From: Nitrospira sp.
GTDB lineage: Bacteria; Nitrospirota; Nitrospiria; Nitrospirales; Nitrospiraceae
Direction of reading: 5' to 3'
DNA: 64,000 bases
NCBI GenBank assembly: GCA_018242665.1
Contig: JAFEBL010000003.1
Span: 1-64,000, forward strand
The position numbers and the translations under genes were made by a program. This document shows, one piece after another, positions 10,768 to 38,056 of the stretch. The notes beneath the pieces were generated by a model. It saw only the letters and a list, made by a program, of their open reading frames with translations, was not told the DNA's origin and did not search any database. Within the stretch, counting starts at the first letter, position 1. Each line of letters begins with the position of its first letter.

Positions 10768-10785
10768 GTGCACCTCCGCTGAGGT

Positions 10786-22460: not shown

Positions 22461-24116
22461 TCAGGGCGGGGAAACAACTCGATTAGGACCATCAGGCGTC
22501 TGACGGAGCCTTCCCGGCTCAGCCGGCCCATCCTGGAGGACCGGCTGGTAGATCTGATACCGCCCGATCGTTGCGACCAGGCGTATCCGGCGCTGGTTGA
22601 TCAGCGGGTTGTAGAAATGCGACTTGCGGCCGAAATCTCCCACCACCAGATAATCCGGGTGGTCGCGCAGCGGATCGTACGTGATGGGCACGCTGGGATT
22701 TTGATCATGTTGAATCATCTCCACCAAGGCGGCTGGAGGCGCATAGGTATACCGTCGATTCAGAAATAGGAACAATTCACTATCGTAGGTCTCGATCAAC
22801 GAGGTTGGTGGCGTCACTCGATGCACGTATTCGATCACCGCCGTGAGATCCCGATCATCCTCGCGAGAACGGAGGGCGTACCGTTCCTGCACCGCCACCC
22901 ACCCCATCACAACCAACAACAGCAGCAGCAAGACGGTCCCCGCGCGATCGCCACCATGGGACTCGCCTCGAACCAAAGCGGCTAACCTCCGCCCCATGAA
23001 AGTTAGAGAAAACCGGCCGGTGAGATCAGAGAACAAGGCCGCGGCAAACGGAGCTGCGATGAAGAGACCCGGCACCGCATATCTCGGTGCACCGGCGCAG
23101 AGCAGCGCAAACCAGGCCAGCCAGCTTCCTGCCAGCAGGAGGAGCATAGTTCGGACGGTGCGCTCAATCGACGGATGAGCCCCTTGCCGAACCGTATGAC
23201 TGAGGCTCCACGCTCCATACGCCAGCCCAGCCGTATACTCCGGCCAGCGAAGGATTGTGAGTTGGAGAGTTTCCACACGGATGGACGGAACCAGGACGAG
23301 CGCGATCGCTTGCGTCATTCCGGCGGTGGACGACTGCGGAAGGGTATGGCCAGCCAACGCGAGGTCTCTCACCACCACCAAGAACCGATATCCCAGCCAG
23401 GCTCCCGCCAACAGCCCGAGTGAACGTCGGGCCGTCGCCCAATCACGAGATATTCCAGCCAGGCAGGCCGTCCCCGCGAGCGATACCACGAAAAACGGGG
23501 CCACCTGCGCTTTCGCCATCCACGCGAGCGCCCAACATGCTCCAGCCGCCACCAGCCAGAGCCATTGGCGGGTACTGCGGAGCACGCAGGCGTATCCGGC
23601 GAGGAGAAAACAGAGCATGGGCATTTCGCCCAGTACTTGCCGACCGATCATTAAGGGGTGAATCTGCCAGCTCACAGGAACGGCGAGTGCGAGGAACAAT
23701 GCGGCAAGCGCGATCGGGCGATTGAAGGTACGACGGGCAACCACATACAGGAACAGAGACGCGAGAAACGTGTAACACAGTCCCACCATTCGTGCCTGCC
23801 AGATGCCGATGCCGAACAGGTGAAAACTCGCGGCAATCGAGGCCACCACCGGAAAATGCGCCGCGAGGGACGGCGGGGCCGGCGCACCGTTCAGCAGACA
23901 ACCGTAGTGCCCCAATTCCACCCAGGTCCGGGCGACACACACGGTCCATCCTTCGTCGAACCACAGCGGTGGAAAACTGTCCAGATGAAACAGCCCGGTG
24001 CCGAACACAACCAAGCAGAGCAGGAATGCAACGACGTAATCCGTCGCGTCGGAGGCACGCCCAAGGCGCTGGACGGCGCCGGCGTCAGTGGACACTGTGG
24101 CAACAGGAAGGGCCAT
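22461..24116 (-). CDS. GT39/ArnT-type membrane glycosyltransferase
   Basis: 551 residues with about ten membrane helices. Between the first two helices lies PPLWFDEGWTVCVARTWVE, the acidic first periplasmic loop seen in ArnT/Pmt-type (GT-C fold) enzymes that use polyprenyl-phosphate sugars. IHPLMIGRQVLGEMPMLCF and LAWMAKAQVAPF are further family-like segments. The C-terminal part is periplasmic. It is the last gene of the glycan locus and would place a sugar on a lipid-linked acceptor outside the membrane. Start ATG 24116 or 24137. Confidence 0.8.
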   Translation of the reverse strand: MALPVATVSTDAGAVQRLGRASDATDYVVAFLLCLVVFGTGLFHLDSFPPLWFDEGWTVCVARTWVELGHYGCLLNGAPAPPSLAAHFPVVASIAASFHLFGIGIWQARMVGLCYTFLASLFLYVVARRTFNRPIALAALFLALAVPVSWQIHPLMIGRQVLGEMPMLCFLLAGYACVLRSTRQWLWLVAAGACWALAWMAKAQVAPFFVVSLAGTACLAGISRDWATARRSLGLLAGAWLGYRFLVVVRDLALAGHTLPQSSTAGMTQAIALVLVPSIRVETLQLTILRWPEYTAGLAYGAWSLSHTVRQGAHPSIERTVRTMLLLLAGSWLAWFALLCAGAPRYAVPGLFIAAPFAAALFSDLTGRFSLTFMGRRLAALVRGESHGGDRAGTVLLLLLLVVMGWVAVQERYALRSREDDRDLTAVIEYVHRVTPPTSLIETYDSELFLFLNRRYTYAPPAALVEMIQHDQNPSVPITYDPLRDHPDYLVVGDFGRKSHFYNPLINQRRIRLVATIGRYQIYQPVLQDGPAEPGRLRQTPDGPNRVVSPP

Positions 24117-24170
24117 GGCTCGATAGGTTACCGACAAGCCGCTGCAGGGCCGGTTTCCGGAGTGTGCGAC

Positions 24171-25043
24171 TTACGGCATTCGATAGGCATAGAGAATCAC
24201 ATTCTGAAACCGCTGCGGCCCGTAAATCGGCATGCAGACTGCGTCTAATTGATAGTCGAACCCTTGCGTCTCCAAAGCAGTCAAAAACTCTCCGAGCCTG
24301 CCCCGCGCCCCGGCGATTTTGTGATGGTATTCAATCAACATCTCCTTCACCGCAGGCAGTTGCCCGCTGCCGATGAGATCGCTCAACACGGCGGCTTCCG
24401 CGCCCTCCACATCGATCTTCAGGAAGTCCAGCGCTCGTCCCGCCAGTTGTTCGCGCAGCACGCTAGACAAGACGAGAGTGTTCACCGCGATGGTGTCTTT
24501 CGGCATGCGTTCAAATTGCAGGCTCATGCGCGGTGAGCCGGGCCGCGAATGGTCCACATGGAACGACGCGGTACCGGACACGTCGGACAGCGCGACATTG
24601 TAGAGATGCACGCCGGTCAGGTTGTTCGTCTCGACATTCCATTTCAACAGGGCAAAGGTGTCCGGGTCCGGTTCGAATGCATGGATGTCGCTGCCGGGAT
24701 GCAACCACTTGAAGAACAGCGTGGCTAAGCCGATGTTGGCCCCGCAATCGAAGATCACCGGATGCGCGTTGGCCGTCTGGAAATAGTATTCGTTCCGAAG
24801 GAGAATGACTCTGAGCAACAGGTGCAGGGTCCGATAGTCCAAGCACCGAACGGTAAATCCCCACACCCGGTCCTGCGTGAGCGGTCGAAACGGATTGACC
24901 AGCAGCAGCTTGATGGTGACCAGCAGATACCACCACAGGATCCGGGCCTTGATCCGCGCAGGGAACTGCCCGCGCAGCAGATAGGGCGCAAACATCAGCG
25001 TGTCGAAGACGACCTCGAAGAAGAACCAGATGCCCCTGTTCAT
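24171..25043 (-). CDS. FkbM family SAM-dependent methyltransferase
   Basis: 290 residues. The SAM motif is VIFDCGANIGLATLFFKWLHP followed by AFEPDPDTFALLKWNVETNN, and the FkbM hallmark FLKIDVEGAEAAVLSDL is present. The N-terminal 55 residues are hydrophobic and suggest membrane association. FkbM proteins O-methylate sugars or small molecules. It shares a four-base ATGA overlap with the larA-like gene, so both should be translated together. Confidence 0.88.
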   Translation of the reverse strand: MNRGIWFFFEVVFDTLMFAPYLLRGQFPARIKARILWWYLLVTIKLLLVNPFRPLTQDRVWGFTVRCLDYRTLHLLLRVILLRNEYYFQTANAHPVIFDCGANIGLATLFFKWLHPGSDIHAFEPDPDTFALLKWNVETNNLTGVHLYNVALSDVSGTASFHVDHSRPGSPRMSLQFERMPKDTIAVNTLVLSSVLREQLAGRALDFLKIDVEGAEAAVLSDLIGSGQLPAVKEMLIEYHHKIAGARGRLGEFLTALETQGFDYQLDAVCMPIYGPQRFQNVILYAYRMP

Positions 25044-26392
25044 CCCGCCTCCAGCCCGCCGCTTCGCGCCGGCATTGGGGTGAGATGGTCGACAACCGTT
25101 GCGGCTCCTTCATCCTGCACAAGACCCTCAGGCAGCAGAAACGGCGCGCAACGATAGACCGCCACCGTCACAGGCCCCTGTCCATGCCGCGCTTCCAACG
25201 CGGCCCGCAGCGCCGGCCAGGCTTCGAACCGCTGAGCATGAGGGAACATCGTGTGCAAATCCTTCCCCTCCAGACCGGGCGACAACACCATCAAGTGATG
25301 TTGCTTCTGACGAATCAATTTCATGACGGTGCCCAGCTTTTCGAACGGACGGTCCAAATCAGCCAAGCGAAAATGTTTGAGGCGTCTCGCCACGCGGGAC
25401 CAGAGCGGACTGTCCACAGGAAACAATTCATGCGTCCCCAGGCCAAGCGGACAAGCGGCAATCACCACGCGGGACGCGTTCGGCCCTGCACATTCGACCG
25501 GCCACATGCCGCGATCCTGGGCAAACTGCCAGCTGGTATCGAATGGATACATATCGGCCACGACAATATCCGCCTCAGGCACTACCGGCACGGTATACAT
25601 TCGCTGCGCCGCACGGACGCCTTCCTCATGGGCCTTGACCAGATCACCGGCAAACAAACCGCTGATTTCGCGACGGTGATTGAGCGTGACATTGGCAATA
25701 AAATCGAGGCCGACCTTCCTGGCGACCGCAATCATATCCTGCCGCAGCTCCGTATGGATCGAACCACCGCGTGTGCGCGACCCACGCAAGTAGTCGTGCA
25801 TCATCCTCGTGGTCTCCACGCCGCAGACGGCGGGAAGCACAATTTTGGCGCCGCCCGAGAACCCGGCGATCGGATGAGGATAGATGCACCCCACCCCGAT
25901 CTTCAGATCACAGTCCACCACTGTACGATTGATCTGAAGCGGCAGCCCGGCGGGCGATTTACCCAGATCCACGAGATCCCCCCGGCTGTCGTGCGCCACC
26001 ACGCGCACGGCCGGCGAAAGATTGGCGCCGACCTTCTTGGCCATATCTTGCGCGGAAGCGGGAGGATGCGTGCCACCGGCCAAGAGAATGGTTATTGCGC
26101 GTTCACTCAACCCGGCCTCTTTGAGCTCTGCAATGATTGACGGGAGCAGATCTGCCGCAGGAGTCGGCCGCGTGAGGTCGTCGACGATGATCACGCACTT
26201 GGTTTTCTCCTTGGCGATCTCGCGGAGTGGTGGGGAGCCGATAGGCTGACGCAGTTTCTCCCGCATCGCCGTGGCACTCACTGCCGGAGCGTCCTGAGGG
26301 CCGACTTCCATAATCTTCCACGCAGGCGGGAAATTGATCGGCAGCGGCTCATCGCCGAACCACGCCTTGGTACGCAACTGCACGTCGCTCAT
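25040..26392 (-). CDS. LarA-type nickel-pincer racemase/epimerase homologue
   Basis: 450 residues. Residues matching the catalytic set of Lactobacillus LarA (His108, His174, Lys184, His200) appear at 109, 173, 183 and 199, with identical spacing among the last three: LLAGGTHPP, YPHPIAGFSGGAKIVLPAV and TTRMMHD. VDDLTRPTP near residue 71 is the N-terminal family motif. LarA interconverts 2-hydroxyacid stereoisomers through a Ni-pincer nucleotide made by LarBCE, none of which is here. Four-base overlaps with GT2 upstream and FkbM downstream imply a role in the glycan pathway; the true substrate is unknown. Confidence 0.87.
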   Translation of the reverse strand: MSDVQLRTKAWFGDEPLPINFPPAWKIMEVGPQDAPAVSATAMREKLRQPIGSPPLREIAKEKTKCVIIVDDLTRPTPAADLLPSIIAELKEAGLSERAITILLAGGTHPPASAQDMAKKVGANLSPAVRVVAHDSRGDLVDLGKSPAGLPLQINRTVVDCDLKIGVGCIYPHPIAGFSGGAKIVLPAVCGVETTRMMHDYLRGSRTRGGSIHTELRQDMIAVARKVGLDFIANVTLNHRREISGLFAGDLVKAHEEGVRAAQRMYTVPVVPEADIVVADMYPFDTSWQFAQDRGMWPVECAGPNASRVVIAACPLGLGTHELFPVDSPLWSRVARRLKHFRLADLDRPFEKLGTVMKLIRQKQHHLMVLSPGLEGKDLHTMFPHAQRFEAWPALRAALEARHGQGPVTVAVYRCAPFLLPEGLVQDEGAATVVDHLTPMPARSGGLEAG

Positions 26393-27303
26393 GATTTCCG
26401 CTCCACCCTGGAAGACACCGCTTGCACCATGAGGTTCGCCCTCTCTTCACCCCGGGTCGCCGACATTCCCCGACACATCTCCCAGGCAAACCCGGCGGCC
26501 TGGCATTTTTCTCCCAGCCAAAACAGGCAGAAATGCCGTGTGCGCCGAAACTTGTGCCACTCAAACGGTCCCAGCATTTTCAGCCAGAACGCTTTCAGCC
26601 AACGCGGCTTGGCTTTCTTTCCGCCCTCACCCCACAACAGGCTGTCCTGAGGCACGATTCCGGCAGGATCCGCTCGCATGACACGGAACAACATCGCGAT
26701 CCCCTCGCCCCGTTGAAAAGCGTGGCGCAAGTGCTGCAGCCCGGTCGCCTGACGCAAGTGGGTGACGGGATTCGGGACATACACCATCTTGGTGCCCCGC
26801 TTCCGCAGCCGCCAAATCAATTCCCAATCCTCGCACGTGCCGGTAAAGAGCGGGTTGAAGATATACCCATCTTCCCGCTCACAGTTCAGGAGGCAATCCC
26901 GGCGAAAGAGAATGTTTCCGGTGTTGCCGACCAATCCTCCCGGATCGAGCTGCTCAACCGCCGGAAGCGAATTGAGACGGCGAATCGCGTCCAGGAGCGG
27001 ATCCGTTTCTATGAACGTGCCGCCGGCGACGGCCGCCGTATGCCGATCGAGCGCCGCCACCAATCGCTCCAACCAGTCCGGCGGGGGAATCCCGTCATCG
27101 TCGGCAAGCGCGATCAGGTCTCCTGTCGCATGGCCAATGCCTGTATTTCTCGCCCACGCCGCGCCACGCCTGTCTCGATCGAGGATGACCAGGACTTCAT
27201 CTGGCGGTCTGGTTTGTTTCGCGAGGGCAGCCTGACACAATGCGAGGGTGTCCCGCCCTACAGTCGGAATGACGACGGAGATCTTGTGCTGATCAGCCGG
27301 CAT
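26389..27303 (-). CDS. Family 2 glycosyltransferase
   Basis: 304 residues, GT-A fold. ISVVIPTVGRDTLALCQAAL at the N-terminus, DRDRRGAAWARNTGIGHA, then the metal-binding LIALADDDGIPPPDWL. Acceptor region includes GNTGNILFRRDCLL and TGTCEDWELIWRLRKRG, with the ED-x-E general base pattern. The C-terminal 80 residues are basic and aromatic (PRWLKAFWLKMLGPFEWHKF) and may bind the membrane surface. Overlaps the larA-like gene by four bases. Confidence 0.88.
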   Translation of the reverse strand: MPADQHKISVVIPTVGRDTLALCQAALAKQTRPPDEVLVILDRDRRGAAWARNTGIGHATGDLIALADDDGIPPPDWLERLVAALDRHTAAVAGGTFIETDPLLDAIRRLNSLPAVEQLDPGGLVGNTGNILFRRDCLLNCEREDGYIFNPLFTGTCEDWELIWRLRKRGTKMVYVPNPVTHLRQATGLQHLRHAFQRGEGIAMLFRVMRADPAGIVPQDSLLWGEGGKKAKPRWLKAFWLKMLGPFEWHKFRRTRHFCLFWLGEKCQAAGFAWEMCRGMSATRGEERANLMVQAVSSRVERKS

Positions 27304-27318: not shown

Positions 27319-28863
27319 CTAGTTTGAGGCCGCGGCTTTCAACCGCGATAACAACGGAGCCAGCATTCGAAACATCGTTTCCCCCGCCTGCCGAAATGTG
27401 CCCGGCAAACTCTGCACGAGTGATTCCAGTTCGTTCACCTGGACAATTCCAAGGCTGAAGACGCCTGCCCAATAGAGCAAGACGCCGACGGCAATTCCCA
27501 CGAGAAGAGACAACATCGGTGTCGAGACGAGTGCAGAGAGACCGGCCATCGCGATACCGGTTATGGCCACGAGCACCAATAATCGTGACAGTGCCAGCCC
27601 TTCGAAGACGCTGACGTTTCGCCGCCGCAATATCCAGGCATAGCCACCCGCCACCAATGCAAAGGAGAGGGACGTCGCGCAAGCCGCGCCGGCTGCGCCA
27701 CCAGCGGGAATCAGCATCGCGCAGAGCCCGACATCCACCATGACCGTCACGAGCATGATCCGAATCAGAGACATACCTTCGCCGCCCGCTTGAATCACCG
27801 GCCACAGCACGCGGGCCAGGGAATAACACAACGCGCCGGGCACCAGCAGACGCAACCCCAGGGCCGCCTCTGTAAATTGGGAGCCGAAGTACACCGAGAT
27901 AATCCGATCGCCTAACACAAACACCACGATCAGCAGAAAGACCGTGCCCAGCATGACGTAGCGGACGAGACGACTCACCAGGTTGGTGACAGCTTCTACC
28001 CGCTCTTCAGCCCACAGCCGAGCCGTCGCTTGCAGCATCACCCCTTCGACCGCAATGGGAATGAACCAGACGAATTGGGACCATTGCACTGCCGCCGCGT
28101 ACAGGCCCGCCTGAGCTTCCCCTGCCAAGTGGCGAACGAGAATGATATCCAGTGAACAGAGCGTCATGTTGAGCACGGAAAAGACCATGGCCGACAATCC
28201 AAATCGAAGCATGGCGCCAGTCGACAAAGACGGGGCGCACTCAGACGCCGGCAGACCGAGTCCGTTGAGCGCGACCATGACCGCTCTCAGACAGGCGCCT
28301 GCCACAAATACATCAGCCACCAGGAGCCCAACAAACACCCCGACCACACCCATGCCTGTGACCGCCGCGATGATGCCAAAACTTCCTGCGATCAACACGC
28401 CGATAATGCCGGGCACCGCCGCACGCTCCTCATGCCGAAACCCGTGCAACACACCGCGCGCATAAAACCACATCTGGTCGAACACGAGGACGCCCACTAC
28501 GGCCAAGGCGATCGGTACCGGCGCCGTGCCTTGCGAGGCCGTGCTCCAAATGAGCCATCCCGCCGCAAGTCCCACAGACACCACTCCTACGCCATTGATG
28601 AGTGCGCCGGACCGAGCGACCGCCCGGCACCATGCCGCATCGTCAGGACGCTCTGCGATCCGCTTGGTCATCGTGGGCATCATGCCGACGTTCGCGAATT
28701 GCGAGGCGAGCAGGAGCACCGCCAGGTAATAGGCGTATTGACCATATCCCTCTATGCCTAGGTATCGCGCGAGAATGGGCAGGACGACGGCCGACGTGGC
28801 CAATTTGGCCATCGACCATCCACCGACGGAGAGAATCCCTTTAGAAACTGCTTTCGCCGACAT
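27319..28863 (-). CDS. Wzx-type polysaccharide flippase (MOP superfamily)
   Basis: 514 residues with about 14 membrane helices. N-terminal KGILSVGGWSMAKLATSAVVLPILARYLGIEGYGQYAYYLAV (first two helices) is the usual RfbX/Wzx opening. It would flip lipid-linked oligosaccharide to the periplasm. The gene sits between the glycosyltransferases, 15 bases before the GT2 gene. No Wzy polymerase was recognised, so the glycan may be short. Confidence 0.88.
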   Translation of the reverse strand: MSAKAVSKGILSVGGWSMAKLATSAVVLPILARYLGIEGYGQYAYYLAVLLLASQFANVGMMPTMTKRIAERPDDAAWCRAVARSGALINGVGVVSVGLAAGWLIWSTASQGTAPVPIALAVVGVLVFDQMWFYARGVLHGFRHEERAAVPGIIGVLIAGSFGIIAAVTGMGVVGVFVGLLVADVFVAGACLRAVMVALNGLGLPASECAPSLSTGAMLRFGLSAMVFSVLNMTLCSLDIILVRHLAGEAQAGLYAAAVQWSQFVWFIPIAVEGVMLQATARLWAEERVEAVTNLVSRLVRYVMLGTVFLLIVVFVLGDRIISVYFGSQFTEAALGLRLLVPGALCYSLARVLWPVIQAGGEGMSLIRIMLVTVMVDVGLCAMLIPAGGAAGAACATSLSFALVAGGYAWILRRRNVSVFEGLALSRLLVLVAITGIAMAGLSALVSTPMLSLLVGIAVGVLLYWAGVFSLGIVQVNELESLVQSLPGTFRQAGETMFRMLAPLLSRLKAAASN

Positions 28864-28924: not shown

Positions 28925-30034
28925 TTAGGCGGCAAACCGTGCATATTGCGCTTGATGGGCCGCCAGAGCCCGGGAAGTTTCGTAGGTGTCTCGCACATAG
29001 TCATAGGCGGCGCGACCCTTTTCCAGCGGCGCCTCGGCGAGCAGACTCCGAATCGCGGCGGCGTAGTCGTCATCATGCACTTGCTTTCCAAATCGCGTCG
29101 CAAACTGGTCCGGATCAACCCGGCTGATGATGGGACATCCATAGGCAGCGGCTTCCAGGAAGGTGAGTGGAAGACCTTCGCGCACCGCCGTGCTGACGAA
29201 AATCCAGGTATCCGAGAGCAACTGGTGCATGCGTTCAGGCTCACGAAACCGATTGATCAGGCCCGGCATTTCAAGGTTGGGCACGTCGCGATACCGCCGG
29301 CGCAATTCGGCGTCAAAACCGGTCTCCGCAGAAGCACTCCCCTTCCCTACGGCTACGAATCGATAGTCGGGGAACTGTGCAGCCAGTTCCAAAAACAACC
29401 AGGGGCGCTTGCGTTTGTCCCATCGAGCTACAAAGGTGATCGTCGGCCGCTCGCTTTTTCGAGGGAGTGCCGAGGGTACGTCGATGAGATTGGGCAGCAG
29501 CGTCGGCAACTGCGTAAGCCCATACAGGCGCTTGACCTTCTCCTTGAGAAAATGGGCCGGGCAATACACCGCATCGGCTCGCCGCACCGCTTGCCTGACG
29601 AGAAACCCTGATTCTGTGAAGTAGTTCAGCGGCGTCAGCAGGCGGCGCATCGGAGTGGCGTAGAGAAACTCCACCCACCAGTCGCTCAGTTCCCGCGGAT
29701 CCCGGCTGGTCACCAGATGCGCACGGCGCGGATGAATGCGTTGCGCCAGGTAGGTCAGGACCGTCGGATCCTGCGAGTGAAAAATGTCGGCTGTGGATTC
29801 CCGAATCAGGCGGCAGGCATCCATGACGTTGCGCGGCGAGAAGCTGCGAATCTCCACCCCGCCGATGGTTTCGATCGGTTGTTGCCCCTGGCGGCCCGGC
29901 ACGATGACACTGACTCGATGGCCTGACGACGCAAGACTCTCAGCCAGCTTCCGCGACATGCTGCCAAATCCGCCATAGATGCCCCAATCAAAATACTGAC
30001 TGGTCAGAATGCACACATGAGGCAGCTTCCTCAT
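28925..30034 (-). CDS. Family 4 glycosyltransferase
   Basis: 369 residues, GT-B fold. The N-terminal domain has VCILTSQYFDWGIYGGFGSMSRKLAESL, the C-terminal one TITFVARWDKRKRPWLFLELA and TAVREGLPLTFLEAAAYGCPI with the E-x7-E donor motif. I start at ATG 30034, which overlaps the stop of the preceding gene as ATGA; the longer frame upstream is inside that gene. Retaining enzyme using a nucleotide sugar in the cytoplasm. Confidence 0.88.
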   Translation of the reverse strand: MRKLPHVCILTSQYFDWGIYGGFGSMSRKLAESLASSGHRVSVIVPGRQGQQPIETIGGVEIRSFSPRNVMDACRLIRESTADIFHSQDPTVLTYLAQRIHPRRAHLVTSRDPRELSDWWVEFLYATPMRRLLTPLNYFTESGFLVRQAVRRADAVYCPAHFLKEKVKRLYGLTQLPTLLPNLIDVPSALPRKSERPTITFVARWDKRKRPWLFLELAAQFPDYRFVAVGKGSASAETGFDAELRRRYRDVPNLEMPGLINRFREPERMHQLLSDTWIFVSTAVREGLPLTFLEAAAYGCPIISRVDPDQFATRFGKQVHDDDYAAAIRSLLAEAPLEKGRAAYDYVRDTYETSRALAAHQAQYARFAA

Positions 30035-31242
30035 ACCCGAGGCTCCCTGGTCCAATCGCGGGCCATGTTCTGCGAACTGCGGGGATCCTTGGCTCGGCTG
30101 TCGACCGACGGAACCGCGATCTTCGCGCACAACTCCAAATAGCGGGTCGCAAGCGCCGGCCATCCGAATGCGAGCGCACGACGGCGACTCTCATCCCCCA
30201 TGCGCCGCCGCTGGTCGGCATTGGTCAGCAACCGCTGCAACGCGGTCGTGAGCGCCGAGACATCAGCCCATGGCACGATCTCACCGTTTGTTCCCTGCGT
30301 CACCAGTTCCGCGGTACCGCCCGTATCGGTCACAATCACCGGAAGGCCGGAGGCCATCGCTTCCAGGAGGGCAATCGACATGCCTTCATGCTGAGACGGG
30401 AGCACGAACACATCGGCCCCGTGATAGACAGGCGGCATATGTTCGCGCGGCACAAAGCCCTTGAACGTCACCACCTCGGCCACCTGTAATGTCGCCGCCA
30501 ATTCTCGCAACTGCGGCTCGGCATCTCCGGTCCCGACGAAGATCAGCGCCATCGGTTCTTGGTTCGCGGCTCGCAATTGGGCGAAGGCCTCTAACAGATG
30601 ATGCTGCCCTTTGCGCTCAATCAGCCGGGCGACACAGATCATGGTGAACGGCCGTCCGGGAGTCTTCGCGGCCGGGACAAACGCGTTCGTATCCACCCCG
30701 TTGGGAATTGTGACCAGAGGCAGTTCCGGCATCGTTCGATGCGCCAACGCGACCTGTTCCGCGCTGATCGCTGTCACGACACCGGCCCGGCGCCAGATCC
30801 TGGTGATGAACGGCGTCAACACCGGGTAGAGATAGTTGTATCGCGCCTCGAACCCCGGCACATCCGGCCCCTGTAACGATAAGACGTATGGGAGTCCATG
30901 CGTGAGACGCAACAGGTAACTGATGGCACCGGCCGGCACACCTGCGAAAGCGAAGCTCACATCATACCGATGTGTCGACGCCAACTGCCGGGCGAGACGC
31001 AGTCCCCGCCAACTATATCGCAGCAGCTCGCGATTGGTGGCATGATGAATGTTGTGATTGTCGACCGGCACCTTGTAGATCGTGATGCGATCGGCGAAGG
31101 CCTCGGTCTCGTATCGCGCCTTGGTCCGCGAGGACGTGACGAGATCCACCGTAACATCGGGCCGCAAGGCCATCTCTTCCAGCAAGTGCAGATTGACGAC
31201 GCCGGTGCCGCCCCCGAGGGGAGGGAACTCATTATCGAACAT
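30031..31242 (-). CDS. Family 4 glycosyltransferase
   Basis: 403 residues, GT-B fold. EFPPLGGGTGVVNLHLLEEM near the N-terminus, TIPNGVDTNAFVP, CVARLIERKGQHHLLEAF and PSQHEGMSIALLEAMASGLPVI (E-x7-E). The first beta strand appears to begin before the first ATG: in-frame codons upstream read AAIRIL, and AGGAG stands 9 bases before an ATT codon at 31254. A non-canonical start there is possible, and ATG 31242 is the conservative choice. Confidence 0.88.
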   Translation of the reverse strand: MFDNEFPPLGGGTGVVNLHLLEEMALRPDVTVDLVTSSRTKARYETEAFADRITIYKVPVDNHNIHHATNRELLRYSWRGLRLARQLASTHRYDVSFAFAGVPAGAISYLLRLTHGLPYVLSLQGPDVPGFEARYNYLYPVLTPFITRIWRRAGVVTAISAEQVALAHRTMPELPLVTIPNGVDTNAFVPAAKTPGRPFTMICVARLIERKGQHHLLEAFAQLRAANQEPMALIFVGTGDAEPQLRELAATLQVAEVVTFKGFVPREHMPPVYHGADVFVLPSQHEGMSIALLEAMASGLPVIVTDTGGTAELVTQGTNGEIVPWADVSALTTALQRLLTNADQRRRMGDESRRRALAFGWPALATRYLELCAKIAVPSVDSRAKDPRSSQNMARDWTREPRV

Positions 31243-31259: not shown

Positions 31260-32435
31260 CTATCTCCTGGTCACGCGGCGGGCGACGTACAGCGGCCGGT
31301 GCTTGACTTCATCGGATATGCGTCCGATGTATTCCCCGATGACGCCGATGGTCATGAGCTGAATCCCTGCGAGAAAGAAAATCGACACGACGAGCGTGGT
31401 GAACCCGGCCACCCCGACACCGATGGTGAGTTTCTTGATGACATAAAACAGCGCCACCAGGAAGGACAGCAGTGAGACGGTAAAGCCCAGCAACGTAATG
31501 ATGCGCAATGGCATGTGGCTGAATGACACCAATCCATCCAGCGCCAGATAAATCAGCTTTCGAAGCGTGTATTTGGGGGTGCCGGCATGGCGCGCCTGGC
31601 GCTCATAGGGCACGCCGACTTGTTTGAACCCCACCCAGCTGCGGATGCCTCGCACAAATCGATTCCGTTCAGGCATGCGGACGAGCAGGTCAACCACTTT
31701 CCGGTCCATCACGCAGAAATCTCCAGCATCTAACGGGATCTCAATGTTGGCGACCCGTTGCAGCAACCGGTAGAATCCCGCATAGGCTAACCGTTTTCCC
31801 CACCATTCCTTTCGCTCGGTTCGTACCGCGTAGACCACTTCCCAGCCTTCTTGCCACTTGGCCAAAAAGGTGTGCAGGACTTCGGGAGGATCTTGGAGGT
31901 CGGCGTCCATAATACTGACGACACGCCCGCGGCAATGCTCCAGCCCGGCACTGATCGCGACTTGATGGCCGAAATTTCTGGCAAACTCAACGACGACGAC
32001 CCGCTGATCTTCCGCCTCCAAACGCCGCAACATCTCCGGACTCTGGTCATGGCTGCCGTCATCGACAAAGACAATCTCATAATCCAGCCCCTGTTCGGTG
32101 AGCGTCCGGGTGAGGCGGGTATGGAGCGTCTGCAAATTCTCTTCTTCGTTGAAGACCGGAATAACGATCGACAACATCGGCGAAGGAAGAGAAGCGGCAC
32201 CTTGCCCGAGAATGGCCGCGACCAAGGCCGGCGACTGGCGATGATCCTCGGCTGTGGAGGTCAGCTCCATGGCCGAGGCCAGGGCCCGACAGAACTCCAG
32301 CGCTTCTTGCGGATCCTGTGTCGGCGGCAACTGACGGCCGCTGGCGGGCTTCCGCCCTGTTGCGGGCGAAATCTCTTGTTGGCCAAACCAATCTCGAGGA
32401 CCGGACTGCGGTGATGGCTGCATTGGAACACTCAT
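31260..32435 (-). CDS. DPM1/GtrB-type polyprenyl-phosphate glycosyltransferase
   Basis: 391 residues. After a poorly conserved 85-residue N-terminal extension comes a GT2 domain: LSIVIPVFNEEENLQTLHTRL, IVFVDDGSHDQSPEML, VSIMDADLQDPPEVL. Two membrane helices follow near the C-terminus (IITLLGFTVSLLSFLVALFY and GFTTLVVSIFFLAGIQLMTIG). This layout makes polyprenyl-phosphate sugars that feed GT-C enzymes such as the GT39 protein at the end of the locus. ATG 32435 is 9 bases after a stable hairpin; ATG 32483 is upstream of it. Confidence 0.88.
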   Translation of the reverse strand: MSVPMQPSPQSGPRDWFGQQEISPATGRKPASGRQLPPTQDPQEALEFCRALASAMELTSTAEDHRQSPALVAAILGQGAASLPSPMLSIVIPVFNEEENLQTLHTRLTRTLTEQGLDYEIVFVDDGSHDQSPEMLRRLEAEDQRVVVVEFARNFGHQVAISAGLEHCRGRVVSIMDADLQDPPEVLHTFLAKWQEGWEVVYAVRTERKEWWGKRLAYAGFYRLLQRVANIEIPLDAGDFCVMDRKVVDLLVRMPERNRFVRGIRSWVGFKQVGVPYERQARHAGTPKYTLRKLIYLALDGLVSFSHMPLRIITLLGFTVSLLSFLVALFYVIKKLTIGVGVAGFTTLVVSIFFLAGIQLMTIGVIGEYIGRISDEVKHRPLYVARRVTRR

Positions 32436-32444
32436 GTATATTGA

Positions 32445-32470
32445 GTCGAAACCAGTCACCGGGTTTCGAC
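32445..32470 (-). promoter_or_regulatory. Inverted repeat before the GtrB-type gene
   Basis: GTCGAAACC (32445-32453) pairs with GGTTTCGAC (32462-32470), nine base pairs with an eight-base loop. It ends 9 bases before ATG 32435 and lacks a U-run, so it is more likely an operator or translational control hairpin than a terminator. Confidence 0.4.
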
Positions 32471-32624
32471 GGTATATCGGCAATGACTCTCTCAGTGTTG
32501 CTCCCTAGTGTAGCGGAGGAGGTCGATTTGAGCCATATCTTCCGGTGAAATCGCCATATAGGAATTTGGGAGATCCTGCTCTGCCTCAGCCTGACACAGA
32601 TCGCAGAGTAAGACGTGGTGAGGA

Positions 32625-33617
32625 TTATTTTCGAGAGGGAGAAGGATCAGCACCTTTGGTCAGCATCGCCAGGCAACCTAGCCCCAACGCAATCCAGACA
32701 AATTCCCGAAAACGCCGCAGAAGCGCGAACGTGATGCCTGTGACCTCGCCGTACCCGAACGCGGAAAGCAGAAACAGATTACCGGCATCCTGTGCACCCA
32801 AACTGCCTGGGATAAAAAACGTGCCTCCTTTGATAAACACGGAGAGCGCCCCGATGGCGATAGCCGGCAAGACATCGATGGGTTGCCCCATGCAGAGCAC
32901 CATGACGTAGACCTCTAATGCCTCCGCCAGCCAGCCGAGCAAGAACAAACCGGTTGAAAGGAGGAATGCCTGTCGCTGGTGGGAATAGAACCCTGCGATG
33001 GTGCGATCGAGTTCGAGCAACTGCTGCTCACGCGCCTCGAGAAACTGAATGCGCAGACCGATGCGTCGCAACAGAGTTAGAATCCACCCGAACATGCCTT
33101 GGCGCTGGACGATGACAAAGGCGCCGACGCCGAAGAGCAGGAGGCCCACGCTGACCAAGCCCGCGGTAATCGTCTGACCAGCCGATCCGCCGGAACCCAA
33201 TAGCCAGAATCCCAGGCCGATGCCTGCGAGAATGAACAGGATCTGCGCGACGGTCATGGTCGTTTTCGCCGTCACGACCGACGCGAGGCCCTCAACGAGT
33301 GGCACGCCATGGCGATTGAGAAGATAGGCCTTCAATGGTTCGCCCCCCACATAAGCGGGCATCGTCATGTTCACCGCTTCCCCGGCCGTCCTGATGGCCA
33401 GCACGCGCCAGAAGGGCACGTCATTGGCCCATGTCCCGAGCGTCACCCGCCAGCCATAGGCTTCGAACACATACATGAGGAGCGAGGGCAGGAGAATCAC
33501 CAGCATCGCGGCAGGGCTTAGCTGTGTGAGAGCGTCATAGATACGCCCGATGCCGATGTGCCAGATCAGTGCGGAGAGGGTCAGTGCCCCGAGGACAAGG
33601 AGGGCGGCCTTAAGCAC
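32625..33617 (-). CDS. UPF0104/lysylphosphatidylglycerol synthase-type membrane protein
   Basis: 330 residues, about eight membrane helices, of the LPG_synthase_TM (AglD-like) type. The pattern RTAGEAVNMTMPAYVGGEPLKAYLL and IKGGTFFIPGSLGAQDAGNLFLL are family hallmarks. Members act as lipid flippases or accompany glycosyl- and aminoacyl-transferases. It overlaps the CDP-alcohol phosphotransferase gene by eight bases, suggesting that it handles the product of that enzyme. Confidence 0.85.
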   Translation of the reverse strand: MLKAALLVLGALTLSALIWHIGIGRIYDALTQLSPAAMLVILLPSLLMYVFEAYGWRVTLGTWANDVPFWRVLAIRTAGEAVNMTMPAYVGGEPLKAYLLNRHGVPLVEGLASVVTAKTTMTVAQILFILAGIGLGFWLLGSGGSAGQTITAGLVSVGLLLFGVGAFVIVQRQGMFGWILTLLRRIGLRIQFLEAREQQLLELDRTIAGFYSHQRQAFLLSTGLFLLGWLAEALEVYVMVLCMGQPIDVLPAIAIGALSVFIKGGTFFIPGSLGAQDAGNLFLLSAFGYGEVTGITFALLRRFREFVWIALGLGCLAMLTKGADPSPSRK

Positions 33618-35064
33618 GGGCCCGTGCCGACGGTCGGATCACCCACAGCATCATCAACCAGAAGACGGTTGAGCCAAGTGCCGCCATCCATAAAAACCAG
33701 TCCAGCGTATCCATGAGGGCAAACAGGAAGACGACCACCGAGAAATCGCGACTCGCCACATTCTTGAGAATGAAGTCGGACCAGGCAGCCTGTTTCGGGG
33801 TATTCCAACCTCGCGTGGCCCCGATCTTTTGAGCCTTCGTCACCAGCCAGAATGCCATGGCATTGCCGAACACCGCTGCGCCTCCCAGCGCCAATGGCAC
33901 CCAGGCCTCGGGCGTATCGGCGTGGCGGACATAGGCCCCGCAGGCAATGCCGGCAAAGATAGCGATATGCACCACATTGTCCATGGCGATATCCAGCCAC
34001 GCGCCGAAGGGGGATTCCGTAAAGGTGAGGCGCGCCACTTCTCCATCGCAACAGTCGATGATCGCCGCGAGCTGAAACAACAGCGCTGCGACGATGCCCG
34101 CCGTATAGGTCCCCAGACCGAATCCGACCGCGGAGAGGAGCCCAACCGCGGTGGCCACCATCGTGATAGTGTTCGGGGAGCACTTTAATTGGAGGAAGAG
34201 CCGCGTCAAGAGCCGCGAAAAGGTCCGGTTGAAGTAGCGATCGACAAAACCTTCGGCCTCGCCTTTCAGCGAACGGAACAACGTGCGCTCGGCGTGACCG
34301 GCACTCGCTTGATCCCACACCTCGCGATACCAGAGTCCGGCGTGGGACGCGGCGGCCACCACTCGCACTCGGCCTTCGATGGCGGCCCGTTCCAGCCAAC
34401 GACGCATGGGAGTCATCCCAGAGGGTTCCGTGACGCCGCTCGACGAGGCCATGGCCACCCCGCCGGGCGGGTTCAAAATGCTGGCGGGCAGCACGACCAG
34501 GTCGGCCGCGACTTGATGCCCCTGCTGGCCGGGCTGATTGTGGAATGAAACCAGGCGTCCTTCCTGAAATGCGACCACCGGATTCCGCCGACCAACCGCC
34601 GGTTCGACCGGCCCTGCCTCACGCGTGACCACCAGTGCTTCGCCGTCGCGCACGGTCTGCCGCAAATGTTCGATCAAGCCCTTGGAAAACACGGCCTGAA
34701 CTCCGGCCACGAGACAGAAACCTCGAACTTCAGCGGCCAGAGATTCCCATGTTCGCGGATCGTCGAGCGGAAATTCCCGCACCGGCATCCACCGGACTGG
34801 AATCGTCACCCGTGCTCCCCGCGCCAGCGCTTGCTTGAGCAGCTCTTCATCGGGACCGGCCAACACGATCAATTGGCGGATACCACCCCGTTGCAAGGTC
34901 AGGACCGTCCGCTGAAAGAGGCTCAACCCTCCGATGTGAGTCAGGGGGCCCACGTCGGCGAGACCTCGACCCGGACGATCGCCGAAGAGACCGGCCCCCG
35001 GCAGCAAAATGGCCGTGCTCAACCCCTGCAGTTCCGCGCCTCGTTGTAAGGTACTTTCACTCAT
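33610..35064 (-). CDS. CDP-alcohol phosphotransferase fused to a degenerate nucleotidyltransferase
   Basis: 484 residues. Residues about 15-240 resemble a nucleotidyltransferase fold, but the usual LAAGxGxRL...PK signature is replaced by LLPGAGLFGDRPGRG with no Lys at the expected place. From about 285 on there is a membrane CDP-alcohol phosphotransferase with an intact motif DGEVAR-x8-G-x3-D-x3-D within its fourth part (residues about 340-362). The design resembles archaeal and thermophile IPCT/DIPPS fusions. In this locus it may transfer a CMP-activated phosphonate to a lipid or glycan alcohol; the substrate is inferred. Confidence 0.82.
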   Translation of the reverse strand: MSESTLQRGAELQGLSTAILLPGAGLFGDRPGRGLADVGPLTHIGGLSLFQRTVLTLQRGGIRQLIVLAGPDEELLKQALARGARVTIPVRWMPVREFPLDDPRTWESLAAEVRGFCLVAGVQAVFSKGLIEHLRQTVRDGEALVVTREAGPVEPAVGRRNPVVAFQEGRLVSFHNQPGQQGHQVAADLVVLPASILNPPGGVAMASSSGVTEPSGMTPMRRWLERAAIEGRVRVVAAASHAGLWYREVWDQASAGHAERTLFRSLKGEAEGFVDRYFNRTFSRLLTRLFLQLKCSPNTITMVATAVGLLSAVGFGLGTYTAGIVAALLFQLAAIIDCCDGEVARLTFTESPFGAWLDIAMDNVVHIAIFAGIACGAYVRHADTPEAWVPLALGGAAVFGNAMAFWLVTKAQKIGATRGWNTPKQAAWSDFILKNVASRDFSVVVFLFALMDTLDWFLWMAALGSTVFWLMMLWVIRPSARARA

Positions 35065-35103
35065 CGTCGATCACGTCGCGATTTGAGGGAGGAGAGTCTC
35101 CCT

Positions 35104-35823
35104 TTACAGCCTCGGCAGAACTTCCCGCTCCGCCTTCGTCACATCTTCAGGAAAATCAATTTCGGTCCAGGGCAATCCTCCGATTTTCTCATGCCCAACC
35201 TTCACGTCCCGGAAGTAGTGCAACAACCCATCTTCGTATTCCATGTCCCAGCGGTCTTGATCGATGTAGCCCTTGAGGGAGGCGATCACATGCGCCGTAT
35301 CCGCCCGCCGCACCCGGAGGAACCCGACACCTTCGCCGGCAAGATCGTACCGATCCGGCACCTTCTTGCTCAAGGCGATGACGCGGTCACCCTGCACCAC
35401 CACCATGCATTCCTCGCCCGTTTGCTTCACCGCGTCATCCATCAGCAGGCAATTTTCATACGGTGATGCCACAAGACGCCGAAGGATTTCTCGATGAAAC
35501 AACACGTCTGCATCCATGATGACCACATCGTCGGTGAGCGCTTGCCTGGCGATCCATAACGATGAAATGCTGCCGCGATGGAACTCCTCGTTCACGAGAT
35601 AAGAAATATCGACCCCATGGCACTGCGGTCCCACGGCAGCCCTGATCATCTCCTGCTTGTATCCGACCACGATGGTAGCCTGTCGGATCTTCACGGACGC
35701 CAGAGATTCCAGATAGCGAGACAACAAGGTCTGCCCGCCGATCTCGATCAGGCATTTCGGCTTATGCTGGGTCACCGGCCAGAGACGTTTCCCGACTCCT
35801 GCCGCAAGGATGATCGCTTTCAT
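35104..35823 (-). CDS. Nucleotidyltransferase, probable phosphonate cytidylyltransferase (PntC/LicC-like)
   Basis: 239 residues. Intact signature AIILAAGVGKRLWPVTQHKPKCLIEIGGQ, with the metal-binding VVIMDADVLFH. LPWTEIDFPEDVTKAE near the end is typical of LicC-type CTP transferases. In Treponema PntC this domain is fused to an AEP aminotransferase. Here the two are separate genes joined by a four-base ATGA overlap, which supports activation of aminoethylphosphonate to CMP-AEP. A sugar-1-phosphate substrate cannot be excluded. Confidence 0.8.
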   Translation of the reverse strand: MKAIILAAGVGKRLWPVTQHKPKCLIEIGGQTLLSRYLESLASVKIRQATIVVGYKQEMIRAAVGPQCHGVDISYLVNEEFHRGSISSLWIARQALTDDVVIMDADVLFHREILRRLVASPYENCLLMDDAVKQTGEECMVVVQGDRVIALSKKVPDRYDLAGEGVGFLRVRRADTAHVIASLKGYIDQDRWDMEYEDGLLHYFRDVKVGHEKIGGLPWTEIDFPEDVTKAEREVLPRL

Positions 35824-36914
35824 GCGCGAGCCGCCGCTCCGGCCAGCACTTCCTCGAACGCGCCCAGAAAGCCGTCGATCTGGGGTTCGGTCAGCGCTCC
35901 CATGTTGGCGACACGGAACACCTTCGACTCCAGCTGCCCTTGGCCGGCATAGATCACATACCCGCGGGCCTTGAGCTGATCATGCAATGTGGCATAGTCG
36001 AGACCGGCAGGCAGATGGAAGGCGGTAATTGTATTCGATTGCACGTCCACCGGCAGAAACGGCTGCACTCCCATGCCCGCCATCCGCTCCCTGATTCGCG
36101 TGGCCATACGCCGATACCGCTGGAATCGATTGGTCACCCCCTCTTCCAGCAATTCGTCCAGTGCCTCTTCAAATGCATAGTACACCTGCACGGCCGGCGT
36201 GAAGGGCACAATCCCTCGGCCCTGTTCATCGACATAATGGGTCAGGGTCAGATACCAGGACCGCTTCGGATATTTTCGCATCTGGTCCAGGAATCCCTTC
36301 CGGAGCAGGACAAACGAGACGCCGGGGAACCCTTGAATGCACTTGCCCGCCGTGCCCGCCACCATATAGATGTGCGACCCGGCAATGTCGATCGGTTCGC
36401 CGGCCAGACCACTAACGGAATCGAGGACGAATACCCGGTTGAGGCTGTCGACGACCTCCGCAATTTCTTTCACCGGGTTGATCAAGCCGGTCGTCGTCTC
36501 ATGATGCACCATCGACACCGCGTGCACTTCGGGATGCTGACGCAGGGCTAACCGGAGCCGTTCCGGATCAGGCCTGACGTGCCATTCCGACTTGAGTTCG
36601 GACACCCCGAGTCGCTGCAAGCCGATCATATTGGACAGCCGTTCGCCGTAGACCCCATTGTTGAGCACCAACATACGCTTGCCCAATGGAAGACAGGACA
36701 TGACCGCCGATTCGACGGCAGCCGTGCCGGACCCCGTTAAGACGACAGCCACGTACTCGGACTCCGCGCCGGGCACAAAGGCGGTGAGCAACTTCTGCTG
36801 AATGCGCAGCAGCATGTCGGAAAACTCGGATTCCCGATGGCAGATGTCCGGACGCAGCAACGCCTGCCGCACCCGCTCGCTCACATTTACCGGACCTGGA
36901 TTCAGAAGGATCAT
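35820..36914 (-). CDS. 2-aminoethylphosphonate--pyruvate aminotransferase-like (PhnW/AEPT)
   Basis: 364 residues, PLP fold type I. NPGPVNVSERVRQALLRPDICHRE opens it. GSGTAAVESAV is the phosphate loop, MVHHETTTGLINPVKEI is close to the PhnW signature, LDSVSGLAGEPIDI holds the PLP Asp, and AGTAGKCIQGFPGVSFVLL carries the Schiff-base Lys in the PhnW-like KCIxGxPG setting. In biosynthesis it would aminate phosphonoacetaldehyde from the decarboxylase genes just upstream. Serine-glyoxylate-type transaminases share the fold, but context favours AEP. Confidence 0.85.
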   Translation of the reverse strand: MILLNPGPVNVSERVRQALLRPDICHRESEFSDMLLRIQQKLLTAFVPGAESEYVAVVLTGSGTAAVESAVMSCLPLGKRMLVLNNGVYGERLSNMIGLQRLGVSELKSEWHVRPDPERLRLALRQHPEVHAVSMVHHETTTGLINPVKEIAEVVDSLNRVFVLDSVSGLAGEPIDIAGSHIYMVAGTAGKCIQGFPGVSFVLLRKGFLDQMRKYPKRSWYLTLTHYVDEQGRGIVPFTPAVQVYYAFEEALDELLEEGVTNRFQRYRRMATRIRERMAGMGVQPFLPVDVQSNTITAFHLPAGLDYATLHDQLKARGYVIYAGQGQLESKVFRVANMGALTEPQIDGFLGAFEEVLAGAAARA

Positions 36915-36983
36915 GGTTCTACCTCAGGCTGTTGATCGGAACGGAGCAGGACGGGCTCACCCAGCACGTGCAGTGCGCCGCAA

Positions 36984-37562
36984 TTACTCAATGGCTTTCA
37001 TGAACCGCGCGGTGATGGCCGGCGGCTCCAAGGCAATCCGTCCGGCATCTTCGACAAACTCGTTCACCTTGACGAGCAACATGCTCGGTCCATCATTCTT
37101 CAACATATCTTTGAATTCGTAGACGAGATCCTCACGGTCCAACACACGTTCGACCGCCACATACCCGGCCGCCTTCGCGACCTTTTCCAGCTGAACAACG
37201 TTGGAGATGGTCGGTTGGTTTCCCGTCGAGCCGTACACTTCGTTGTCGAACACCACATGGACAAAATTTTTCGGCCGCAAGGCGCCCACGGTGGCGAGCG
37301 TGCCCATCCCCATCAGCACATTGCCGTCCCCGTCGAAGACAATCACTTTCTTGGAAGGCTTTGAAAGCGCCACGCCCAAACCAATGGCGGCGGCATTGCC
37401 CATCGAGCCGATCATATAAAAATGCGTCGGCCGATCGGCAAGTTTTTGGGCTTCCCGCGAAGGGAATCCGTTGCAGATGATGACCGGTTGATCCGTCAGC
37501 AATTCGAGCAACGCGGCCATCGCCTGCGCCCGACTCTGCATCGTGCCTTCTTCTGGCCTCAC
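36984..37562 (-). CDS. Phosphonopyruvate decarboxylase, TPP-binding (beta) subunit
   Basis: 192 residues, corresponding to the C-terminal half of single-chain Ppd. The TPP-diphosphate site is VFDGDGNVLMGMGTLATVG, followed by VFDNEVYGSTGNQPT, both very Ppd-like. MGNAAAIGLGVAL precedes it. Its ATG overlaps the alpha-subunit stop (ATGA), so the two should form a complex. The split resembles sulfopyruvate decarboxylase ComDE, but the alpha subunit is Ppd-like in sequence. Confidence 0.85.
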   Translation of the reverse strand: MRPEEGTMQSRAQAMAALLELLTDQPVIICNGFPSREAQKLADRPTHFYMIGSMGNAAAIGLGVALSKPSKKVIVFDGDGNVLMGMGTLATVGALRPKNFVHVVFDNEVYGSTGNQPTISNVVQLEKVAKAAGYVAVERVLDREDLVYEFKDMLKNDGPSMLLVKVNEFVEDAGRIALEPPAITARFMKAIE

Positions 37563-38056
37563 GGCTGCAACCCCTTGATGATGCCCTTCTTGATCAGGAG
37601 GGCCACCGGAATCCGCTGTTTCATGAAGGTCTGGGCCACCCAGCGAAGATCGTCCGCCATGGTCGGTTCCGAGAGGGTCCGATGAGGAATTTTCATCGTG
37701 TCGAGCAACTGCGGCATCGTCTCGCCCATCACCAGATGTTCCGGTGCATCCTTGCCCTCAAAGCCGCGCCAGGATACCAACAGGATACACGGCTGCCGAT
37801 AGATCATATTGAGCGAGAGCAGGGTATTCAACGACGTGCCGAGCCCGGAGTTTTGCATGAGCACGGCAGGAATTTTTCCCGCCATGAAGGCGCCGGCCGC
37901 CATGGCCACCGCTTCATCTTCGCGCACGGCGGGCGTGTACAATTTGCGGGTGAGCAATTCTTCGATGATGCCGCCCAACAGGGAATCAGGCACCCCCGTA
38001 AAGAAATTCACCCCCAGACTTTCAAGCGCCTGCACGAAGACGTCACTGTCGACCAT
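37559..38056 (-). CDS. Phosphonopyruvate decarboxylase, N-terminal (alpha) subunit
   Basis: 165 residues, the PYR domain half. GVNFFTGVPDSLLGGIIEEL and the segment VREDEAVAMAAGAFMAGKIP (with the Glu that activates TPP) followed by VLMQNSGLGTSLNTLLSLN match Ppd enzymes, which turn phosphonopyruvate into phosphonoacetaldehyde. SWRGFEGKDAPEHLVMG also follows the Ppd pattern. AGGAGC precedes ATG 38056. It is the first gene of the 15.6-kb locus. A PEP mutase gene is not found upstream or elsewhere in the window. Confidence 0.86.
   Translation of the reverse strand: MVDSDVFVQALESLGVNFFTGVPDSLLGGIIEELLTRKLYTPAVREDEAVAMAAGAFMAGKIPAVLMQNSGLGTSLNTLLSLNMIYRQPCILLVSWRGFEGKDAPEHLVMGETMPQLLDTMKIPHRTLSEPTMADDLRWVAQTFMKQRIPVALLIKKGIIKGLQP

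Follow-up and report, generated by a model that had tools for sequence, protein, structure and literature searches.

A LarA-type protein encoded among glycan-assembly genes in Nitrospira: conserved gene linkage and a candidate role in surface glycan assembly

The association of a larA gene with glycan-assembly genes, found here in the window (the whole stretch of 64,000 nucleotides of Nitrospira sp. DNA that was analysed), is real, conserved and recurrent, and has no description in the literature searched: none of 5.39 million open papers searched by text paired the nickel-pincer with a glycan, and the literature searches brought up nothing relevant on LarA in connection with O-antigens, Nitrospira or glycans. 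As far as sequence and gene neighbourhood indicate, the product of this gene would be a nickel-pincer (NPN)-dependent 2-hydroxy-acid racemase or epimerase of a LarA subclade that stands apart from the lactate and malate racemases and that functions in Wzx-dependent surface glycan assembly, a reading to which we give moderate confidence. The features that form its basis are observed, namely the cofactor and catalytic residues, the NPN genes of the genome, the conserved linkage, purifying selection on the gene and the separate clade. To our knowledge, every NPN enzyme whose function is established works on a small metabolite, for example lactate, malate, 2-hydroxyglutarate or gluconate. What would be new here is the branch and its role, the family itself being known.

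The larA gene, its residues and its cluster

The larA reading frame begins with ATG and lies on the minus strand (Table 1); translating this span on the plus strand does not give the gene. At each end the gene shares the four bases ATGA with a neighbour, GT2 on one side and FkbM on the other, exactly as the original prediction had placed them. The Pfam Lar_N domain covers the N-terminal 200 residues of the product, no second Pfam domain was found in it, and its similarity to LarA proteins drops beyond residue ~330. Searching with phmmer against solved LarA structures returned the malate racemase Mar2 as the best match (E = 2.7e-41), and L. plantarum LarA was matched with E = 1.3e-38. Judged by its Lar_N domain and its residues, the protein is clearly LarA-like and a member of the NPN-dependent superfamily, and it is the sole Lar_N protein encoded in a genome that is 99.9% complete. 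Since dN/dS (NG86) ranged from 0.03 to 0.18 (about 0.13) against 13 of 14 orthologues, being saturated in one pair, the gene is maintained by purifying selection.

Table 1. Features of the window, with positions counted from its first nucleotide
Feature	Position	Strand	Basis or remark
PMT_2-type (GT-C) glycosyltransferase	22461..24137	minus	PF13231; adjoins larA in all Nitrospira loci
FkbM-type methyltransferase, optional partner	24171..25043	minus	PF05050 68.3 bits
LarA-type protein, 450 aa	25040..26392	minus	Lar_N 172.9 bits (cut-off 23.3)
H199 codon (LarA H200, nickel ligand)	25796..25798	minus	alignment
K183 codon (LarA K184, holds NPN)	25844..25846	minus	alignment
H173 codon (LarA H174, acid/base)	25874..25876	minus	alignment
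H109 codon (LarA H108, acid/base)	26066..26068	minus	alignment
R75 codon (LarA R75, NPN and carboxylate contact)	26168..26170	minus	alignment
GT2 glycosyltransferase	26389..27303	minus	PF00535
Wzx-type polysaccharide flippase	27319..28863	minus	PF01943/PF13440; in all Nitrospira larA loci
GT4 glycosyltransferase, listed start probably upstream of the true one	28925..30163	minus	PF13439/PF00534
GT4 glycosyltransferase	30031..31242	minus	PF00534 146.9 bits
GT2, polyprenyl-phosphate sugar transferase type, PgfS/ArnC-like	31260..32483	minus	PF00535 116 bits
Flippase-like membrane protein, start of conserved upstream block	32625..33617	minus	PF03706 118.6 bits
Nucleotidyltransferase-type N-terminus fused to CDP-alcohol phosphotransferase, IPCT/DIPPS-like	33610..35064	minus	PF01066
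Nucleotidyltransferase, possibly AEP cytidylyltransferase (candidate PntC-like role)	35104..35823	minus	PF00483/PF12804
2-aminoethylphosphonate transaminase-like (PhnW-like)	35820..36914	minus	TIGR03301 344.7 bits, just under 360.8
Split TPP decarboxylase, phosphonopyruvate/sulfopyruvate decarboxylase-like, two genes	36984..38056	minus	TIGR03846/TIGR03297 and TIGR03297/TIGR03845, under cut-offs

The four catalytic residues expected from the original prediction are indeed in place, as H109, H173, K183 and H199 align with H108, H174, K184 and H200 of LarA; the equivalent of LarA R75 is also present, and all five residues are invariant across 15 Nitrospira sequences. Structures of LarA with substrate revealed that the carboxylate is bound by Arg73, Gln295, Lys298 and both His residues, and that the 2-hydroxyl group is contacted by His107 and Tyr294 (PMC11851776). 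In our alignment, which is uncertain in the C-domain, Y294 and Q295 correspond to Q289 and F290 of the window protein, K298 corresponds to R294 after a one-residue insertion, and an equivalent of W358 was not placed; the LarA loop F175-F176 reads P174-I175. On this alignment, the C-domain substrate contacts (the Y294/Q295/K298/W358 region) appear not to be conserved as in lactate racemases. The Phe at the Q295 position is common to the window protein, to the homologue of genome G236 and to those of genus g4, and not to those of family f7 (these lineages are described below). The stretch from residue 333 to 372 is basic, with several invariant Arg residues, which would be in keeping with either an anionic substrate or a membrane surface; a basic C-domain segment was nevertheless rejected as a signature of the glycan-linked group because it gave no clean separation (G145, net +9). 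An AlphaFold2 model from the 15 Nitrospira sequences reached a pLDDT of only 49.8 because the alignment was shallow.

These apparent differences lend some weight to an alternative in which the protein binds NPN and performs another hydride-mediated reaction on a glycan precursor (e.g. redox or dehydration), with no simple stereo-inversion. The positions of Q295 and Y294 are occupied by F and Q, K298 is displaced by the insertion, and the related g4 proteins carry Gln at the position of the second catalytic His (H174), with a His one residue on. This altered pair is, by sequence comparison, distinct from the published Asn variant, and owing to the Gln the mechanism in g4 may differ. Reactions of other kinds have been raised by the authors of an earlier study for LarAHs that lack H174 or K298 (PMC7583248). 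In the Nitrospira proteins, however, both catalytic His residues and all NPN residues are invariant, and a reaction other than stereo-inversion, if worth serious consideration, appears unlikely.

Around larA, two GT2 genes, two GT4 genes and the genes for Wzx, PMT_2 and FkbM form one co-directional run, a composition which identifies a Wzx-dependent surface glycan cluster. Pfam and NCBIfam models picked out no carboxylate-activating enzyme in the Nitrospira larA cluster, so here the acid may be carried within a sugar, or an enzyme that these models do not recognise may add it. ComA and ComB, which make the 2-hydroxy acid 3-sulfolactate from phosphoenolpyruvate and sulfite, were considered as a source of sulfolactate in Nitrospira and rejected, as ComA was absent from the 12 Nitrospira genomes tested, the source genome included.

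Recurrence and loss of larA in Nitrospira and its relatives

Orthologues of larA, with 71-88% identity, are present in 21 of 29 Nitrospira genomes, the named relatives carrying them including Candidatus Nitrospira defluvii. The LarA-FkbM-GT2 neighbourhood at issue in the original prediction is not confined to this strain, which would have refuted that prediction: it is met again in other genomes of the genus, in a second one and, with other partners, in other families. It is, however, Wzx and PMT that are constant, while FkbM is not. The Wzx and PMT genes flank larA in all 20 other Nitrospira loci and a GT2 gene is adjacent in all but one (G014), whereas FkbM adjoins larA in a minority of loci and lies beyond PMT in one genome. 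Being absent or moved in most orthologous loci, FkbM was dropped as a fixed partner of larA. The second genus (g171, genome G415) keeps the order dpm-type GT2 - Wzx - GT2 - LarA - FkbM - PMT, with a LarA that is 60% identical to that of the window; the two GT4 genes were not recognised there.

Genomes without larA are informative regarding the unit to which the gene belongs. In three of them (G004, G006 and G028) the glycan stretch including larA is missing and the upstream phosphonate-type genes are kept, the fusion of nucleotidyltransferase and CDP-alcohol phosphotransferase being retained in seven of the eight larA-less Nitrospira genomes and the flippase-like gene in two genomes that lost larA. 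Two further genomes (G011 and G025) keep Wzx, GT2 and PMT, with a larA remnant between GT2 and PMT. As this remnant consists of the first ~15 codons and an out-of-frame piece resembling the C-terminus (L120 9700-10000 and L121 10000-10300), larA was once present in these genomes and was then deleted. The larA gene belongs with the glycan cassette, not with the phosphonate genes, and can be lost while the cassette is kept.

Searches for LarA homologues in 395 genomes of the phylum, and in 269 of class Nitrospiria, yielded few. LarA is borne by 29 of the 269 genomes of the class and lies among glycan-assembly genes in all 29, in three cluster architectures: that of Nitrospira and G415, that of genus g4 and that of family f7. 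Genus g4, which is of the same family and comprises four genomes (loci L114, L115, L116 and L176), has the order ComA - ComB - ATP-grasp - acyltransferase 3 - LarA - ATP-grasp - GT4 - FemAB, the ComB gene of G133 not being resolved by the ORF filter. Both ComA and ComB of g4 score under the NCBIfam equivalog cut-offs, and ComA was specific to this genus among the genomes tested. Family f7 (three genomes) has a GNAT-like protein, LarA and an AMP-forming ligase in succession. In one of its members, G267, the LarA cluster holds PMT/Wzy/Wzx and GT4 genes, with larE, larB and larC1 directly upstream of larA in the same glycan cluster, and the ligase shows similarity to the model for exosortase-associated acyl-CoA ligases (390.8 bits, below the cut-off of 592); in the other two, UDP-glucose dehydrogenase, GT2 and APS kinase/ATP sulfurylase lie by LarA. 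Outside the class, G236 presents a fourth architecture, in which a LarA (40% identity over its whole length) lies next to a GT2/radical-SAM pair and to an ABC exporter accompanied by GT4 genes. A search of plasmids returned only distant LarA homologues (25-36% identical).

In a maximum-likelihood tree the window protein grouped with those of G236, G145, g4 and f7 (support 100/99) and stood apart from the racemases of solved structure (lactate, broad-range and malate) and from other Nitrospirota homologues; since HGR, HHR/PLR and GntE were not among the proteins in the tree, a characterised group could yet fall within this clade or next to it. Only G145, which sits on a long branch, is a member outside a glycan cluster, with HAD, methyltransferase and aminotransferase neighbours. 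The neighbours of canonical-clade loci were DUF4147/MOFRL, DcuC carriers, aconitase, altronate dehydratase, FAD-linked oxidase, PALP and RNB, and no glycosyltransferase was found beside these loci in what is a control of limited depth, few neighbours having been scanned per locus; G234a, which groups with the canonical clade, had no glycan neighbours either.

These data bear on the possibility that larA encodes an ordinary catabolic racemase of the lactate or malate type that lies in a glycan operon by chance. Its best family scores are indeed those with the NCBIfam malate racemase (NF052593, 243 bits) and lactate racemase (NF033504, 219.4 bits) models, and gene context is not always predictive of LarAH activity (PMC7583248). 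However, the scores are far under the respective cut-offs of 500 and 460, as are those with the LarAH10 model (189 bits, far under its cut-off) and the hexonate (GntE) model (38.3 bits against 500), which counts against assignment to the LarA groups having models, and the protein falls in a separate clade. In addition, the glycan linkage recurs with differing partners, and larA is missing together with the glycan stretch in the three genomes mentioned above; we consider a chance placement of a catabolic racemase to be quite unlikely.

Cofactor genes with and without larA

A search for larB, larC and larE had been suggested as a check on the original prediction, and all three were found in the genome, outside the glycan cluster, so that their absence, named there as grounds for refutation, does not apply. 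The larC gene (C36:43834-44961, 442 bits) scores over both the LarC1 and LarC2 cut-offs, larB adjoins it (NF033503, 284.8 bits against 175), and larE is located at C17:123889-124647 (313.6 bits against 150). Among the Nitrospira genomes, larC is present in 28 of 29 and is kept without larA in G004 (a single contig), G006, G009, G011, G024, G025 and G028, with larB accompanying it in the larA-less genomes examined; on this ground the idea that the NPN genes serve only this LarA was rejected. Since larB and larC are kept without larA, Nitrospira probably has another, non-LarA client of NPN, and the presence of larBCE therefore permits, and does not prove, NPN loading of LarA. A published survey (PMC11796402) reported larB, larC and larE in the absence of larA for approximately 15% of genomes and put forward an NPN protein that awaits identification; the larA-less Nitrospira with larB and larC represent a further bacterial case of this question.

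As a separate observation, a contig of G005 (C16, L143 3220-11857) carries larE, larB and a short larC1 together with QRPTase-like and nucleotidyltransferase-like genes, and also encodes a DctM/NMT1_3 transporter nearby. A 517-aa protein of this locus (10304-11857, minus strand), which gave no Pfam, NCBIfam or Lar_N match, can be regarded as a candidate for an NPN enzyme other than LarA; G005 has 3% contamination, to which this contig may belong.

Proposed role and related systems

If loaded with NPN, which would be bound through R75, K183 and H199, the window protein would employ H109 and H173 alternately as acid and base in a proton-coupled hydride transfer to and from the cofactor, a scheme that is the published LarA mechanism (PMC7583248, PMC11851776), and would thereby invert the hydroxyl-bearing carbon next to the carboxylate of a 2-hydroxy acid. 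The role originally envisaged, in which a hydroxy acid of a surface glycan has its configuration inverted, finds partial support and remains a proposal: judged from the gene linkage, the product would end in the glycan. The inverted hydroxy acid or sugar acid would enter a lipid-linked glycan, as one of its units or as a substituent. The adjacent GT2/GT4 enzymes would make this glycan, Wzx would flip it and the PMT-type transferase would complete it. In the related clusters, the acid would seemingly be activated by an AMP-forming ligase or by ATP-grasp ligases, and the occurrence of such carboxylate-activating enzymes beside LarA in g4 and f7 fits the attachment of an acid.

That no enzyme of this kind was recognised in the Nitrospira cluster would also suit a role in which a free hydroxy acid is made (e.g. 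for osmotic or redox balance), the link to the glycan being one of co-regulation only; acyl ligases and acyltransferases, however, adjoin larA in the g4 and f7 clusters, and we deem a free product very unlikely. It is scarcely credible that the protein is no longer an NPN enzyme and is dead or structural. In favour of this reading, the cluster has on at least one occasion outlasted the deletion of its larA, and the C-domain appears to have diverged; against it, none of the NPN and catalytic residues varies among 15 sequences, dN/dS is about 0.13 and larEBC lie beside a LarA relative in G267.

With an NPN-dependent epimerase of glycan assembly as the preferred reading, there appears to be a marginally better than even chance that a whole nickel-pincer branch is dedicated to surface-polymer assembly, inverting the stereocentres of hydroxy or sugar acids for exported glycans in several lineages that differ in carboxylate activation (through an AMP ligase, through ATP-grasp together with sulfolactate synthase, or by no evident enzyme). 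The recurrence across lineages suggests that these proteins may determine the handedness of an acid unit in surface polymers. Were this true, a rare nickel chemistry would extend to cell-envelope polymers, the 3-sulfolactate from ComA/ComB in the g4 cluster would be a concrete candidate substrate, and the nickel cofactor would have a physiological role in an important group of nitrite oxidisers.

Among characterised systems, lactate racemase LarA (L. plantarum; PDB 5HUQ/6C1W) shares with the window protein Lar_N, the equivalents of R75/H108/H174/K184/H200 and the presence of larBCE in the genome, but appears to differ in its C-domain contacts and its FF loop (PI here), and the window gene lies in a glycan context, not among lactate genes. 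Mar2 of the LarAH6 family (PDB 6D6Z) is the closest solved relative, although the window protein is under the cut-off of the corresponding model and belongs to a separate clade. Nearest in concept are the D-gluconate 2-epimerases GntE (LarAH groups 18-20), NPN epimerases acting on a sugar acid, yet their EV/S loop is absent from the window protein. For the single-histidine group (LarASp and LarABw; PMC12611868) a place in carbohydrate metabolism was proposed from gene context; these proteins have Asn for one catalytic His and glycolysis-type neighbours, whereas the window protein keeps both His residues, has glycan-assembly neighbours and matches them at only E ~1e-13.

The decarboxylase, transaminase and nucleotidyltransferase encoded upstream in the window resemble the aminoethylphosphonate route of pnt clusters with PntC (PMC6697681), but, unlike these genes, larA of the window tracks with the downstream glycan cassette. 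The phosphonate-type genes (window 33610-38056, and L122) are probably, as judged from their sequences, concerned with aminoethylphosphonate tailoring of a surface molecule. The L122 locus (G000:C39, 8564-11434), elsewhere in the genome, encodes a separate PEP mutase-nucleotidyltransferase fusion and a full-length decarboxylase.
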